A stretch of 22,824 nt of DNA from a virus. Of the stretch, positions 7,550-16,892 are shown one piece after another (positions within the stretch are counted from its first letter, which is position 1; the number at the start of each line of letters is the position of its first letter). The stretch is from IMG/VR virus record IMGVR_UViG_3300008259_000185, positions 1-22,824 of that record. The stretch is one strand, 5' to 3'. The translations under genes and the position numbers were made by a program. Under the pieces are notes generated by a model, which was not told the DNA's origin, searched no databases, and saw only the letters and a program-made list of their open reading frames with translations.

Positions 7550-7732
7550 TTAGTATTGTTGATTCTTTTTTTGAGCCTTTTTTTCTAAATGACGTATTAA
7601 CATACCAACGTACACATCTCTTTCCCATGGCATCATATTCTCTAGCTCAGATAAAGAATATTGATGTTCTTGCATCAATATGAAATTTGTTTCGTAATAA
7701 TTGATGACAGAATCATGAGAAAGAGTTAAACG
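7550..7732 (-). CDS. gp51-like ORF in the -1 frame, probably expressed as a gp26-gp51 frameshift fusion
   Basis: On the minus strand the frame opens after a TGA inside the end of gp26 and runs to a TAA at 7550-7552. From the predicted shift point it encodes 60 residues: RLTLSHDSVINYYETNF, then SLSELENMMPWERDVYVGML and a basic tail. The YYETNF and MPWERDVY stretches resemble gp51-type and T-domain tail chaperone sequences. There is no ATG, GTG or TTG before the conserved N-terminal part. The first ATG (7675-7673) would remove 19 of the 60 residues and has no Shine-Dalgarno. A -1 slip on the heptamer in gp26 would join 231 residues of gp26 to these 60, giving 291. T4 also places gene 51 directly after gene 26. 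The frameshift is inferred, not shown. Confidence 0.7.
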   Translation of the reverse strand, partial: RLTLSHDSVINYYETNFILMQEHQYSLSELENMMPWERDVYVGMLIRHLEKKAQKKNQQY

Positions 7733-8424
7733 AAAAAATTGACTATCTCATTGATGTTTACAATATTATTTCTTGCACACTTTGGGCATGCAAAACGAAT
7801 ATCGTGATGAATTGCTGGCATTGTGTCAAAAAACAATTTCATCATTTCAAACTGTGTACTTGTCACATTGTCAACAAATTCACGAAAATCTTCTTGTGTA
7901 GCATTTTCTCTGTTGTATACTTCTTCGTTCGTCTGAATAGTTTCAATACAGTGTGCCACCATATCGTAGATGTCATCAACCGTAGCATCTGGATTTGATA
8001 ACAATGCCAAATGTTCAATTTTTGGATATCGCATCATCACAATTAAATCTTTCGATAACTCTAACCGATTGGTATGATGTTCATTGTATAACACTTCCAC
8101 TTGATTGATATCAATTGTTGATGATGTTGAATGTTTACAATTACCACAGATGAGATTAAATTCAATGATTTCACCCACAGATTTTCCACGTATTTCTAAA
8201 AATAATTTCTGTACGTCAACCATAGAATGAGTATCACATGACACTGTTCCGTTTGTACACGCCAATACAGCTTCATTTAATGCACGCAACACGGCATTTC
8301 TATCACCACTTTCAGATGCCAATAACAATAATTTTTCTTCTCTCATGACAAACGGACGAAACGTCACTTTTTGTTTTGACACGGGTAATGTAGTTTCAAA
8401 AGTTGGTAAATGATTTATTTTCAT
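7726..8424 (-). CDS. 26: gp26-like baseplate hub assembly protein / tape measure chaperone
   Basis: A 232-residue protein of the T4_baseplate (gp26) family. Its N-terminal LPVSKQKVTFRPFVMREEKLLLLA is characteristic (about residues 13-36). Two CxxC pairs, C93/C96 (CGNC) and C213/C216 (CPKC), probably form a zinc ribbon. T4 gp26 is needed for hub assembly and is not abundant in virions. By position (before gp51 and the tape measure) it is the counterpart of the G chaperone of other long-tailed phages. Its last codons AAT TTT TTC GTT TAA contain a -1 slippery heptamer, so two products are expected: a 232-residue form and a longer fusion. An ATAGGAT site precedes the ATG, and a late promoter lies at 8461-8468. 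Confidence 0.85.
   Translation of the reverse strand: MKINHLPTFETTLPVSKQKVTFRPFVMREEKLLLLASESGDRNAVLRALNEAVLACTNGTVSCDTHSMVDVQKLFLEIRGKSVGEIIEFNLICGNCKHSTSSTIDINQVEVLYNEHHTNRLELSKDLIVMMRYPKIEHLALLSNPDATVDDIYDMVAHCIETIQTNEEVYNRENATQEDFREFVDNVTSTQFEMMKLFFDTMPAIHHDIRFACPKCARNNIVNINEIVNFFV
7732..7738 (-). other. Putative -1 ribosomal frameshift site (T TTT TTC)
   Basis: On the minus strand the gp26 codons AAT TTT TTC place the heptamer T TTT TTC in the X XXY YYZ register used for -1 slippage. It stands two codons before the gp26 stop. A slip moves translation into the gp51-like frame at CGT. Downstream I see only a short ATGA/TCAT hairpin as a possible stimulator. Confidence 0.65.
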
Positions 8425-8432
8425 AATTTATC

Positions 8433-8996
8433 CTATGTTGTAATGTTTTCAACCGTCCAATATTTATAGGCAAATCCAATATTCAAACGATGAATTCCTA
8501 CAGCAGAATATGATGTCTGCATCAAATTCATTGACTTAGGAAATGCCTCATGCAATTTCACTTTATATCGTGTTGTTTCTTTGTATCCCTGAACAGGCGT
8601 GGGACCAATGGGACCTTCATGTACAGCTTCAATAATGATGTCACCGATGATGTCTCTGTATGGTGCCACTTCACGGGAAGTGCCAATAATGGCATTCATC
8701 CAATCATCAAAAAACTTTTTCACCTTCCATTCAGAGTCTACAAAAAATGTAAAGTTGGCTGACTCTCCAAAAAAGTCAACCGCAGAAGGACGTTGAATGT
8801 TTAGATTGTGTATTCGTGCTGGTCGTGTAATAATGGTTTTACCCGGAAACGCGGCTTCTTCACAAAACAATGTGAGTAGCTGGTCAGCGGGTGCTGTAAC
8901 TATGTTGGGTTTGGAAACAATAGTTACAGAAAATTTTTCAGATTTTGCCAATCCTTTGGCACGTACTACTGTGAGAAAATTTTCTATACTAGGCAT
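8433..8996 (-). CDS. Tail-tube-fold protein, probable gp54-like tube initiator
   Basis: A 187-residue protein with the layout of phage tube proteins. An N-terminal strand (KFSVTIVSKPN) is followed by LFCEEAAFPGKTIITRPARI (residues near 43-62), where gp19-type proteins have a C/A-x-A-x-LPG stretch. Next come FTFFVDSEWKVKKFFDDWM, as in gp19's FVDW region, and a C-terminal beta pair (YKVKLHEAFPKSMNLM, LNIGFAYKYW). T4 gp19 is 163 residues and gp54 is 320. Because it lies with hub genes rather than the sheath gene, a tube initiator or hub ring role is more likely than the main tube. It overlaps the upstream gene by 8 nt. A late promoter for gp26 is embedded near its 3' end. Confidence 0.6.
   Translation of the reverse strand: MPSIENFLTVVRAKGLAKSEKFSVTIVSKPNIVTAPADQLLTLFCEEAAFPGKTIITRPARIHNLNIQRPSAVDFFGESANFTFFVDSEWKVKKFFDDWMNAIIGTSREVAPYRDIIGDIIIEAVHEGPIGPTPVQGYKETTRYKVKLHEAFPKSMNLMQTSYSAVGIHRLNIGFAYKYWTVENITT
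8461..8468 (-). promoter_or_regulatory. T4-type late promoter (TATAAATA) for gp26-gp51-tape measure
   Basis: On the minus strand an exact TATAAATA lies within the last codons of the tube-fold gene (in the codons for YKY). The expected start near 8455 gives a leader of about 30 nt with an AGGAT site before the gp26 ATG at 8424. The position just ahead of a gene supports function; coincidence with coding sequence is possible. Confidence 0.65.
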
Positions 8997-12037: not shown

Positions 12038-13450
12038 ATGGCAAATCCTATAGATGCCCCAGCGTTAAATCCTGGGTCTGTTAACATTAAAGAGGTCACA
12101 TTGTTCAAGGCGGGACAGGAATATCCATTAAAGGATTTCATTGTTGAACTATCTGTGTTTGAAGATATGTTTTCCAATACCATGTCAGCTACAATGATTT
12201 TATCTGACGGATTAAATTTGGTGGGATCACTTCCTATTACAGGCGGTGAGATTATTAATATTTCATATACTGTACCAGGATTTGAAGATTCACAAATTTT
12301 TGGTCGTGCCTTTTATGTGTTTGCTGTTCGTGATAGATTTCCCTCAAGCACAGACCGTCAACAAATGTACATGTTATCTCTCATGTCATTGGAAGCAGCT
12401 GTAGATTCTGTTACTGTTGTTTCAAAAAAATATACAGGTAAACCTAGTGAAATTGCAAAACAGATATTTGATGAATATCTTTCAATGCCTCGTTTTTGGA
12501 GCAAAGAGTACGATATGCCTGCTGGATTAAGTGACGAAGAAACATTGACACGTCCTGCATGGAAAAAATCAGTACCGCAGCAAAATAGAACATCATTACA
12601 ATTGATGCCAAACTCAGAGTCTAAAAATAAAGTTACCTGGGTTGTACCCATGTGGAGTCCAATGAAGTGTATCAATTGGTTGGCAAATCGTCATCTCGAT
12701 GAAGGTAGTAAAGCAGCCAACACCTTGGCATGGGAATCATCACAACAATTTTATTTTGCGACTGTTGATAGCATATTCAAAGCTCAAGAAAATGTGAATG
12801 AGCGCAAGGTGTATTATTACGGATTTGATGATGCCATGATTGAACGTATTACAAAAAATAATTCTACAAAAAATACGTTGATAGAAGGATACAAGAAGGT
12901 GGAAAATGTTGCCATACCCACAAACTATGACATTCTTCGTAGTCAAGAAATGGGACATTATTCATCAACAATGCACGTGTTCGATGTGGTCACTAAAAAG
13001 TATGATGAATATGTGTTTGATTACATCAACAACTATTCACAGTTTGAACACTTACATGGCAAAACAAATCCCACGTTTCCGTCACAACAACTACGAAATG
13101 TTCATTCATATGTAACATTCCGTCCTAAGCATAAGAAAATTTTCAATGATTTTGAAGACCCAAAATTTGAAGATTGGGTTCTACAGAGAACAAGTTTACT
13201 ATACGATATTAGTAATTTGAAAATTGAAATCACAGTTCCTGGTTTGGCAGGAACACAGGCAGGTGAAGTTGTACAATTCTATTATCCAAAAATGGCAGCA
13301 AAGGGTAGTGATGAAAATGTTGAGAATTTGATTGATAGATATCTATCAGGAAGTTATCTGGTGACTGCTGTACGTCATATTATTGCGCGAGATAAGTATA
13401 CAATGAAATTGGAAATGGTAAAAGAATCACTTGCTTCAGGATTAGGATAA
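12038..13450 (+). CDS. 27: gp27-like baseplate hub subunit
   Basis: A 470-residue protein in the gp27 position, just before the gp5 OB-fold gene. Residues 15-110 (NIKEVTLFKAGQEYPLKDFI, VFEDMFSNTMSATMILSDGL, then GEIINISYTVPGF) match the start of tail hub proteins with two tube-like domains. WSPMKCINWLANRHL (about residues 206-220) and the C-terminal TVPGLAGTQAGEVVQFYYPK with GSYLVTAVRHII are also typical. The gp27 trimer links the sixfold tube to the threefold gp5 needle. The stop overlaps the next start (TAATG), so translation is coupled with its structural partner. Confidence 0.85.
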   Translation: MANPIDAPALNPGSVNIKEVTLFKAGQEYPLKDFIVELSVFEDMFSNTMSATMILSDGLNLVGSLPITGGEIINISYTVPGFEDSQIFGRAFYVFAVRDRFPSSTDRQQMYMLSLMSLEAAVDSVTVVSKKYTGKPSEIAKQIFDEYLSMPRFWSKEYDMPAGLSDEETLTRPAWKKSVPQQNRTSLQLMPNSESKNKVTWVVPMWSPMKCINWLANRHLDEGSKAANTLAWESSQQFYFATVDSIFKAQENVNERKVYYYGFDDAMIERITKNNSTKNTLIEGYKKVENVAIPTNYDILRSQEMGHYSSTMHVFDVVTKKYDEYVFDYINNYSQFEHLHGKTNPTFPSQQLRNVHSYVTFRPKHKKIFNDFEDPKFEDWVLQRTSLLYDISNLKIEITVPGLAGTQAGEVVQFYYPKMAAKGSDENVENLIDRYLSGSYLVTAVRHIIARDKYTMKLEMVKESLASGLG

Positions 13451-13935
13451 TGCATACAAATGTATATAATAATGGGGGCTTCTATTGGTTCATGGGTGTT
13501 GTGGAAGATAGACAAGACCCTGAGGCACTAGGAAGATGTCGTGTTCGTATTGTGGGATATCATAATCCCGACAAAACTATTTTGCCTACTGAAGATTTAC
13601 CGTGGGCAATACCTCTTATGCCCATGACATCAGCTTCTATTTCAGGAACAGGACATGCACCTGTGGGTCCTGTAGAAGGAACATGGGTAATGGGATTTTT
13701 CCTTGACGGTGATGAATGTCAGTTGCCTGTCATGTTAGGCACATTCCCGGGACGTGCTGAGCCGGTCAACTTGGTAACATTACTACAAAAACTTGCCGAA
13801 GCATTATCAAAAACTCTTACATTACCTACAACTGGGTTGTCCAGTTTGGCAATTCCTACTGTGAATGTATTGGCCACCAATGAGACTCAACGAAATGATG
13901 CCTTAAATAACAGCGTTACGGTACAAGAATCATGA
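13450..13935 (+). CDS. 5: gp5 N-terminal OB-fold protein as a separate gene
   Basis: A 161-residue protein carrying the OB-fold found at the start of T4 gp5 and in gpV-type spikes: FYWFMGVVEDRQDPEALGRC, RVRIVGYH, LPWAIPLMPMTSA, then GPVEGTWVMGFFLDGDECQ and LPVMLGTFPG (residues 10-101). It mounts the spike on the gp27 ring. After residue 105 there is only a linker-like tail. The lysozyme and needle parts of T4 gp5 are absent here, and the needle is in the next gene, joined by an ATGA overlap. No obvious frameshift signal is seen at the junction, so the two genes appear to be separate proteins. Confidence 0.85.
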   Translation: MHTNVYNNGGFYWFMGVVEDRQDPEALGRCRVRIVGYHNPDKTILPTEDLPWAIPLMPMTSASISGTGHAPVGPVEGTWVMGFFLDGDECQLPVMLGTFPGRAEPVNLVTLLQKLAEALSKTLTLPTTGLSSLAIPTVNVLATNETQRNDALNNSVTVQES

Positions 13936-16892
13936 TAGATAGACGTTTAATTATCAATGAAATACAACGACAGTTTCCGAAAGATAATGATAATAGTATT
14001 GAATCATTATTGCGTATTTCACCCACCTTACGTGGATTAATTGAATCAGAAGAAGGCGCCGAAACTTTCACAACAACATTTGGGACATTTTCTCTCCCCC
14101 AATTTCTAACTCCTTCCATTATTAATCAGATTGTTCGTGAAATTGCGGAAGCACGAAATGTTGATGGCACCTCAATTAACAGTGTTAATGCATTGTCAGC
14201 GTTAACTGAAGTTTTGCAGATTGCTCAATCTCAAAATCCATTCACAGTAACACCTGATGACATTTACGCTGCGTCACAATATGAAAATTATGAAGATATC
14301 CCATTACAAGAAAATACATTATTAACGACATTTGATGGTGATGTATTCATTGACCCAACAACAGGAGCATTGGCATTAGCACCCACTCCTAATTCTCGTA
14401 TTCTTGCACCAGAAAAAAGTCCCGAAGGACACATTGGACCATTAACTCCTGAAGATGTTGAAATTTTTGCTTTGTTGCTCGAAGATGAAATTCGTCAAGA
14501 ACGTGTGGCACAAGGATCACCTCATGGGTTAGATGTCATTGATGAAAATGAAAAAATGGGTTTATATGGATTGACGGTTCCTGATTTAGTCTCAATTGGT
14601 GTCGTAAGTCAAGGAGCCATTGATGATTGGAACTCCATCCCTGAAAATGCACGTGAAGATTATGCCAAACAAGCTGTATTGGCAGGCGTCATCTCATTGG
14701 CATTTTACAATAACATCCCATATATTCTACGAACATCATTAAGTTGGTATGTCATGGCGAATGCTCGCTTTTGGCTTGAAAGACTTATTGGTCCTAAAAA
14801 CTTCATGACGTTACAAAGAATACAGCGTTTGTTAATGTATCGTCATGTATTGCGTCAGTGGAAAACAACGTTTGCATATTTTGTTAAAAATCTCATCACA
14901 CGCAAATCACAGATATTAGGACATTTATTGGCGGCACGATTAGTGGGTGAACGTGCTGCACGTGCATTTGGATTAGGTGGGCAATTCGCCTCGGTGATTG
15001 GAAGAACAGCGGAAGAAATTTATAATCGAGGTGTGAAGGCAGTAGAAAGTGGTATACGAAATCCTACGTCAGCAGCTCAAATTGACCAAGCGGCTCGTAC
15101 AGTACCAACACCACCCACACCTCGTCCAACAACATCTCGCAAATATAGATTCTTCCCTAACATCCTGCAGCAAAACACGAATGAACCTTTACGCCGAGTC
15201 CCAGATAATCAAGGATTCTATGACCCCAATCGTGTATATCCGCGTGTCACACATATAGGTGAACCTGATACAAATCGGTTGGCACGTAATCATAAAATTA
15301 AGGACACGATTGTACAAACAAAGGATGAAGAACGCATACTTGATGTTCCTGTTGCACGAAAATCATCTCCCACCAAATGGAGTCAACCCAAGTCCCCATA
15401 TAACACAAAATATCCTTACAACCATGTGTATGAGTCTGAATCTGGACACGTAATTGAATATGATGACACACCAAACAATGAACGTATGCATTGGTATCAC
15501 CGTGAAGGCACCTTCATGGAAATTGATAGAAATGGTACTATGGTGCGTAAAATTGTGGGTGATGGTTATGAAATATGGGAACGAGATGGGTATGTATACA
15601 TTGGGGGCAAGTGCAATGTAACCGTAGAAGGTAATTGTAATCTGTATGTGAAGAACAATGTGAATCTTCAAGTTGACGGAAATCTTACTGCCGATGTTCA
15701 CAAGACAGTGACTTTCAATGTTGCCAAAGATTTCAATGTTACAGCAGGCGGCACAATTAATTTGAAGGCCAAGAAAAATGTCAACGTGGAGTCAGGTGCC
15801 ACTATTAATGCCAAGGCGAAAAACAACTTTAATGCGTCAGGCAAAAATGTCAACATCCAAGCTCAGGCAGTAATGAAACTGTCAGGTAAGTTGAAGGCTT
15901 CATTGGCAGCACCACAGGGACAAGCATTATTACTATCAGGTGCGGGTACGGTTGTTGTGAACGGTACAGGATTGGCATTGCTACCATTGCCAGGTGCCGC
16001 TGCGGCAACTTTGGCTAAATCGAATGAAGCATCTACCGCAGGATCTGCTGATATTGGTGATCCTCCAGGTGAACGTAATCCCCGCGAGCCTCAACTTGTA
16101 CCTTTGACATTGGAAGATAGAGTTGATGAGTGGGCGTCATCATTGTCTACATTGGCGGAAAATCCTGAAGATAATCGGGACGCCATTAATGCCTTGAAGA
16201 AGAAAGGCGTTGATGAAGGATTAGTCACAAATGAAGATTTGAATCGCCCATTGGCAGAAGGAACAAGAGATGAAACACCACCTCCGGCAGCGAGACCGGC
16301 GGCAGTTGCCTCATGTCAGCTCATCTATTCACAATCTTCATTCCCAAGTTCATATAGTTTAACTCCGAATGTTACATTAGGATCCCTGCCCGGATATAAT
16401 GTACTTCGCGGACAATATGGATTAACTGTACAGGACATGGTGTGTAATTTACGTCAATTGGCAGTAAATGTCATAGAACCCATGTTTGAATTAGTTGGGA
16501 AGGGTAACATCATCATCACCTCGGTGTTTAGAACTCCTGAATCTGTAACTGGATCCTTGAATCCACCCCGAGGCGTATCATTCCATCAACAAGGTCTGGG
16601 TATTGATGTATGCTTCCATAGAAAAAACTTCTCAGAATACTATAACATTGCTGTCCAATTGAAAAACTCCATTCAGTACGATAAACTACTTCTTGAATAT
16701 CGTTTAGGAAATGTTCGTGGGGTGTCATCATATAAACCTTGGATTCACATACAATGGCAACAACAGGGTATTAATTTAGCGAATGGGAACAAGGGAGGAC
16801 AGGCTAGATTACAAGCATTTACTCTCAAAAATGATAGAACATATTCTCAGACACTTGTTAACCTATTACCAGACTCCACATTAAGATATTAA
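13932..16892 (+). CDS. gp5-type needle protein with C-terminal M15-like peptidase
   Basis: A 986-residue protein. Residues 1-390 are mainly helical, with a hydrophobic and basic stretch near 245-345. Residues 390-500 are a Pro/Arg-rich linker. Residues 500-680 start HVIEYDDTPNNERMHWYHRE, followed by short repeats (CNVTVEGNCNLYVKNNVNLQ; FNVTAGGTINLKAKKNVNVE), the gp5/VgrG beta-helix needle. Residues 800-950 look like an M15 D,D-peptidase: TSVFRT (R867), SFHQQGLGID (H885, D892), LLLEYRLG (E922) and WIHIQW (H939) give the zinc ligands and catalytic acid. It would pierce the outer membrane and cut peptide cross-links. T4 gp5 instead carries a glycosidase domain ahead of the needle. Confidence 0.85.
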   Translation: MIDRRLIINEIQRQFPKDNDNSIESLLRISPTLRGLIESEEGAETFTTTFGTFSLPQFLTPSIINQIVREIAEARNVDGTSINSVNALSALTEVLQIAQSQNPFTVTPDDIYAASQYENYEDIPLQENTLLTTFDGDVFIDPTTGALALAPTPNSRILAPEKSPEGHIGPLTPEDVEIFALLLEDEIRQERVAQGSPHGLDVIDENEKMGLYGLTVPDLVSIGVVSQGAIDDWNSIPENAREDYAKQAVLAGVISLAFYNNIPYILRTSLSWYVMANARFWLERLIGPKNFMTLQRIQRLLMYRHVLRQWKTTFAYFVKNLITRKSQILGHLLAARLVGERAARAFGLGGQFASVIGRTAEEIYNRGVKAVESGIRNPTSAAQIDQAARTVPTPPTPRPTTSRKYRFFPNILQQNTNEPLRRVPDNQGFYDPNRVYPRVTHIGEPDTNRLARNHKIKDTIVQTKDEERILDVPVARKSSPTKWSQPKSPYNTKYPYNHVYESESGHVIEYDDTPNNERMHWYHREGTFMEIDRNGTMVRKIVGDGYEIWERDGYVYIGGKCNVTVEGNCNLYVKNNVNLQVDGNLTADVHKTVTFNVAKDFNVTAGGTINLKAKKNVNVESGATINAKAKNNFNASGKNVNIQAQAVMKLSGKLKASLAAPQGQALLLSGAGTVVVNGTGLALLPLPGAAAATLAKSNEASTAGSADIGDPPGERNPREPQLVPLTLEDRVDEWASSLSTLAENPEDNRDAINALKKKGVDEGLVTNEDLNRPLAEGTRDETPPPAARPAAVASCQLIYSQSSFPSSYSLTPNVTLGSLPGYNVLRGQYGLTVQDMVCNLRQLAVNVIEPMFELVGKGNIIITSVFRTPESVTGSLNPPRGVSFHQQGLGIDVCFHRKNFSEYYNIAVQLKNSIQYDKLLLEYRLGNVRGVSSYKPWIHIQWQQQGINLANGNKGGQARLQAFTLKNDRTYSQTLVNLLPDSTLRY

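Follow-up and report, generated by a model that had tools for sequence, protein, structure and literature searches.

The pairs G/GT of phage lambda and E/E' of phage P2 are reportedly tail assembly chaperones (Levin 1993; Christie 2002; Xu, Hendrix and Duda 2004). A review covers the gpG/gpGT mechanism in lambda and describes wide conservation of the G-T frameshift among long-tailed phages, 'except T4' (PMC5009743). For T4 itself, gp51 has been listed as essential and of unknown function (Leiman et al. 2010, PMC3004832). More recently, T4 gp26 and gp51 were described as short and long tail assembly chaperones (Vladimirov, Gautam and Davidson 2022, Virology 566:9-15, as cited in PMC10885494 and PMC12846349), and later papers refer to the same study for poly-T signals of T4-like phages. 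Going by these citations, the two-gene arrangement of T4 is already known, and poly-T frameshifting in some T4-like phages probably is too. For the gp26/gp51 junction of cyanophages as such, a literature search yielded no paper. Here we analyzed such a junction in a stretch of 22,824 nucleotides (hereafter the window; a 22.8-kb virus fragment, IMG/VR record IMGVR_UViG_3300008259_000185), where both tail assembly chaperones very probably come from a single gene, through programmed -1 ribosomal frameshifting. What is new is the scale of the comparison, the test of rival explanations, the stimulators and a map of three arrangements.

Anatomy of the gp26 junction in the window

The window carries a T4-like set of genes, including those for a late promoter regulator, helicase loader, ssDNA-binding protein, DNA end protector, head closure, tail tube and baseplate proteins. 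Its gp26 matches the Pfam family PF12322 (T4_baseplate, E = 3e-55) and phrog_150 (baseplate hub, E = 1.3e-57), and the ORF overlapping the gp26 end in the -1 frame matches model positions 58-115 of phrog_634 ('baseplate hub assembly catalyst', E = 1.9e-24). Both domains of the gp26/gp51 family (PF12322 plus phrog_634) are thus present by sequence at one junction (Table 1).

Table 1. Features at and around the gp26 junction, in window coordinates
Feature	Position	Strand	Basis or remark
gp26, short tail assembly chaperone (TAC-N like), 232 aa	7726-8424	-	normal termination product
Slippery heptamer T_TTT_TTC in gp26 register	7732-7738	-	read directly; stop codon one codon further
gp26 0-frame stop TAA	7726-7728	-	passed over in the -1 frame
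-1 frame open stretch including stop, gp51-like C-terminal domain	7550-7747	-	phrog_634 and codon-position pattern
Post-slip coding part of the -1 frame, 60 aa	7732-7550	-
-1 frame stop TAA	7552-7550	-
Upstream TGA closing the -1 frame	7748-7750	-
Weak Shine-Dalgarno-like GAGATAG 5' of the slip site	7743-7749	-	dG -2.7 with anti-SD; relatives typically -5 to -10
First ATG/GTG/TTG of the -1 frame (TTG)	7678-7676	-
ATG immediately after this TTG	7675-7673	-
Hairpin within the C-domain	about 7658-7682	-
Tape measure protein candidate, 710 aa	5405-7537	-	position and low proline
Tail tube family gene, directly 5' of gp26	8433-8996	-	phrog_45 tail tube, E = 7e-23

On rereading the sequence, the initial annotation proved exact to the base in describing the gp26 end with its in-register T TTT TTC, the -1 ORF opened by a TGA, and the fusion that a slip would produce. 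The last 0-frame codons of gp26 on the minus strand are GTC AAT TTT TTC GTT TAA, and the predicted fusion joins 231 gp26 residues to 60 new ones, making 291 aa. Because the TGA closes the -1 frame, no earlier start of the -1 ORF is possible. The annotation had also claimed that ATG, GTG and TTG are absent before the conserved start of that ORF, which stands, as the first such codon is the TTG lying 20-21 codons inside the conserved domain. The distance of 12 nt from the end of the -1 ORF to the start of the tape measure candidate was likewise given correctly. In-frame T_TTT_TTN is rare in the window, with only 6 occurrences in the 6,964 codons of its 21 listed genes, and the chance of one falling in the last three gp26 codons is therefore about 0.3%.

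The tape measure identity of the 710-aa ORF is proposed from its position. Pfam and PHROG searches gave no tape-measure family match for it; in relatives, the longest nearby ORF, usually >400 aa, begins within about 40 nt of the -1 ORF end. An AlphaFold2 model of gp26 (pLDDT 87) showed strong and widespread matches to the gp26/gp51 family in BFVD, which added no link to G/GT, and among solved structures the HK97 TAC 2ob9 came at rank 7 with a non-significant E of 1.9. A profile search of PDB sequences returned nothing relevant and matched no solved chaperone, and Rfam gave no match within the window.

Elsewhere in the window, a gp5-type baseplate hub protein is split over two plus-strand ORFs, 13450-13935, which matches the start of phrog_430, and 13932-16892 (986 aa), which overlap by ATGA in a -1 frame relation. 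In the 986-aa ORF the remaining OB domain is found only at residues 425-470, followed by Gp5_C repeats, and no slippery heptamer was seen at the ATGA overlap. Also on the plus strand are a subtilase-family protease with a Cys-rich C-terminal end (559-2109; PF00082, E = 6e-26), an ORF weakly matching a galactose-3-O-sulfotransferase PHROG (1955-2791; E = 6e-6) and a QueC-like queuosine synthesis gene truncated by the window edge (28-537).

Conservation of the slip site and its surroundings

Loci for comparison were drawn from viral contigs, by a gp51 consensus query and by gp26 queries, and from individual phage records. Two of the gp26 queries stop short of the slip site. As the gp51 consensus query is biased towards FFR, one of these two is the fairer test; the loci it retrieved gave the same result. 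In 195 of 197 gp26-bearing loci, window included, T_TTT_TTN stands at the gp26 end and the -1 frame holds the gp51 domain. The heptamer is T_TTT_TTC or T_TTT_TTT in 194 and T_TTT_TTA in one (L106), which was rejected as an exception, its heptamer being slippery too. Further fitting records are the KVP40-like R10Z, Vibrio VmeM-32, Aeromonas AS-zj, Ochrobactrum ORM_20 and Pseudomonas Astolliot, together with Rhizobium AF3, where the heptamer is T_TTT_TTG. Among the Straboviridae, the site is present in phiAS5, AS-zj, VmeM-32, S13 and R10Z. Kyanoviridae as a rule have this putative slip arrangement, and so does a large part of Straboviridae, T4 and its allies excepted. It also appears to be used by several phages of Rhizobium, Pseudomonas and Vibrio. 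In L095 and L189-L195, gp26 continues for eight codons past the slip site before its stop, giving the short form an extra tail.

The two non-conforming loci are Limestone1 (Ackermannviridae) and IME-SM1. The latter (L024), with gp51 in another frame, was also discarded as an exception: its run is of five T, against six in Marzo, a close relative that fits, and in megablast the spans of the other relatives listed are likewise one base longer. A single missing base probably makes the 280-aa gp26 annotated in IME-SM1 an artefact. This case, a one-base error or a real deletion, lends some colour to the idea that the split frames of the window reflect a sequencing error in the six-T run, as the initial annotation had considered, or the decay of a gene that was once fused. 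That 195 loci from many assemblies are configured alike refutes the idea and leaves it a vanishingly small probability; the arrangement can therefore be ascribed neither to chance nor to sequencing error.

We then examined which part of the junction is conserved, in a non-redundant set of 121 loci (<85% identity). The residue before FF varies (S in 68, A in 27, D in 13, N in 12 and G in 1), and yet its codon ends in T in 121/121, against a gp26 background of 38-79% for these residues. The corresponding log10 P of about -27, calculated from gp26 codon usage with loci treated as independent, is overstated because the loci share ancestry. The first Phe codon is TTT in all 121, compared with 66% elsewhere, and the A-site codons seen are TTC, TTT, TTA (L106) and TTG (AF3). 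Given the varied residue before FF and the A-site TTA and TTG, which encode Leu in gp26, it is the nucleotides and not the gp26 residues that are kept. Third-position variation in the -1 frame begins directly after the slip, with mean entropies of 1.02, 0.77 and 1.44 at the three codon positions of the post-slip codons before codon 16. Between the window and its relatives L005 and L006, the stretch before any possible start contains 8 synonymous codon differences and 1 replacement.

Most loci share features around the heptamer as well. A Shine-Dalgarno-like pentamer lies 5' of it in 102 of the 121 loci and ends 8-9 nt before it in 100 of these 102. Glu at codon -5 is encoded by GAG in 74/98 cases versus 36% in gp26 (P = 1e-15), and hybridisation with the anti-SD reaches -7.1 kcal/mol versus -5.6 in synonymous resampling. 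On the other side, the 60 nt beginning 5 nt after the heptamer have a mean folding z of -2.66 against synonymous-codon controls, with 70% of loci below -2, whereas z is only -0.2 to -0.5 further downstream. P-SSM2 is a clear case, in which a stem forms 5 nt after the heptamer by pairing of AGTATGGCTCA with TGAGTCATACT. Most relatives carry the classical bacterial -1 cassette of heptamer, internal SD and predicted stem-loop.

The clade of the window has a weak SD (dG about -3; L007 excepted, at -7.2) and no strong structure downstream (z -0.34). The 82-nt fold of the window itself has a z of -2.2, but the stable hairpin (ATATTGATG/CATCAATAT) is about 50 nt from the slip site. Since a strong SD and stem are missing there, slipping in this clade may be weaker, or stimulated otherwise.

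The frame could in principle be changed by RNA polymerase slipping on the T-run instead of the ribosome, and a run of at least six T is indeed present in almost all loci. Six T is, however, short for bacterial RNA polymerase slippage, the phase of the run is fixed relative to the codons, and an SD with a downstream stem are ribosomal stimulators. Transcriptional slippage is therefore extremely unlikely.

A different reading is found in public records. None of the frameshift-type records examined annotates the fusion as a joined gene; gp51 is absent, or begun 3' of the slip, as in S-RSM4 (44 aa) and P-SSM2 (57 aa). Read this way, gp51 would be a separate short protein made by reinitiation or from an internal or non-standard start after gp26, and the T-run would be incidental. 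It would suit this reading that many relatives have an ATG 5-6 codons 3' of the slip in the -1 frame, and that the heptamer is missing from Limestone1 and Vibrio phage D506, which have a TAATG overlap. However, the start position varies while the heptamer is kept: the first ATG, GTG or TTG is at codon 16 or later in 26/121 loci, the window clade among them, and a -1 frame start codon 5' of the slip is present in only 3/121. In the window clade, constraint on the -1 frame is already present ahead of any start, in relatives the SD and stem stand at distances suited to frameshifting, and gp51 of T4 is a full-length fusion in one frame. We therefore rejected a separate gp51 gene, whose start is not conserved, as very unlikely, in favor of programmed ribosomal frameshifting.

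These comparisons bear out the -1 frameshift proposed in the initial annotation. Its suggestion that gp51 exists in this phage only as a frameshift product is supported too, except that this is not special to the phage. The alignment of relatives that it called for showed the heptamer and the -1 overlap to be kept, while the absence of a start codon is not general; relatives with a possibly separate gp51 and no heptamer do occur, namely Limestone1 and D506, beside the great majority that keep the slip site.

Other arrangements in T4 and its relatives

In T4, genes 26 and 51 lie on opposite strands. T4 gp26 matches PF12322 alone, whereas in T4 gp51 the PF12322 match (residues 1-201, E = 4e-52) is succeeded, in one and the same frame, by the phrog_634 C-domain. 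T4 gp26 and gp51 therefore constitute a two-gene short/long pair, which agrees with the earlier proposal that gp26/gp51 are the counterparts of G/GT. The two-gene plan is also found in Aeromonas Aes012 and Acinetobacter W16. An unrooted N-domain tree places the 26 and 51 proteins of the T4 type together (85/86), as one duplication predicts, and T4 and its allies apparently make both proteins from genes 26 and 51 after such a duplication. Vibrio phage TDDLMA (L208, 1311-2653) has a tandem pair of PF12322 genes, the second with the C-domain; the pair joins the tree on long branches with unsure placement and is perhaps an independent duplication. Finally, the TAATG overlap of Limestone1 (L022) and D506 (L202) is shared by gp26 and the C-domain ORF and may be a third route to the pair.

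Because the tree is unrooted, we took the direction of change from how widespread the slip is. It is rather likely that the single slip gene is ancestral in the T4-like superfamily, that the T4 lineage duplicated it once (TDDLMA perhaps independently), and that Ackermannviridae moved to an overlapping start. If so, the cyanophage gp51 'genes' are fragments of a frameshift product and not proteins.

Proposed mechanism and comparison with known systems

To explain the arrangement, we propose that most ribosomes would terminate at the TAA at 7728-7726 and release the 232-aa gp26 as the short form, while some would slip back one base on T_TTT_TTC, enter the -1 frame and make the 291-aa gp26-51 fusion as the long form. 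That slipping takes place in the window phage itself, and in what proportion, is an inference. By analogy with lambda G/GT, the short form may act on the tape measure, coating or binding it, and the rare long form may use its C-domain to recruit tail tube subunits. Such a lambda-like role fits because T4 gp51 is required for assembly yet absent from the particle (PMC3004832). A short/long pair also gives a reason for the pairing of gp26 with gp51. It fills in the 'except T4' exception, as T4 relatives within its own family appear to use the slip, and the gp51 entries of cyanophages should probably be re-annotated as the C-terminal portion of a fusion.

Like lambda G/GT and P2 E/E', the window gene lies between a tail tube family gene and a tape measure candidate, has a putative -1 slip site near its 3' end and would yield a short form and a C-terminally extended long form, of 232 and 291 aa by its anatomy. 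It differs from lambda, as is generally known of that phage, in its heptamer, and from the lambda/P2 type in that gp26 matched none of the solved chaperones by sequence, and none significantly by fold. The combination of internal SD, heptamer and 3' stem-loop in many relatives resembles the well-known E. coli dnaX cassette; in dnaX, however, the heptamer is A_AAA_AAG and the slip yields the shorter product, and in the window both SD and stem are weak. Phage Adele (Vandenendeviridae/Andersonviridae, PMC12846349) likewise has a poly-T slip site where its short chaperone gene ends, 5' of the tape measure gene. Its motif is GTTTTT and it belongs to another phage group; the likeness drawn here is one of arrangement. 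T4 gp26 and gp51 are homologous to the window proteins, with PF12322 in both and the C-domain in gp51, but are encoded by two genes on opposite strands, against one gene with a -1 overlap in the window. Slip, two genes and overlapping start thus offer a natural comparison, as settings of the same two-protein ratio.
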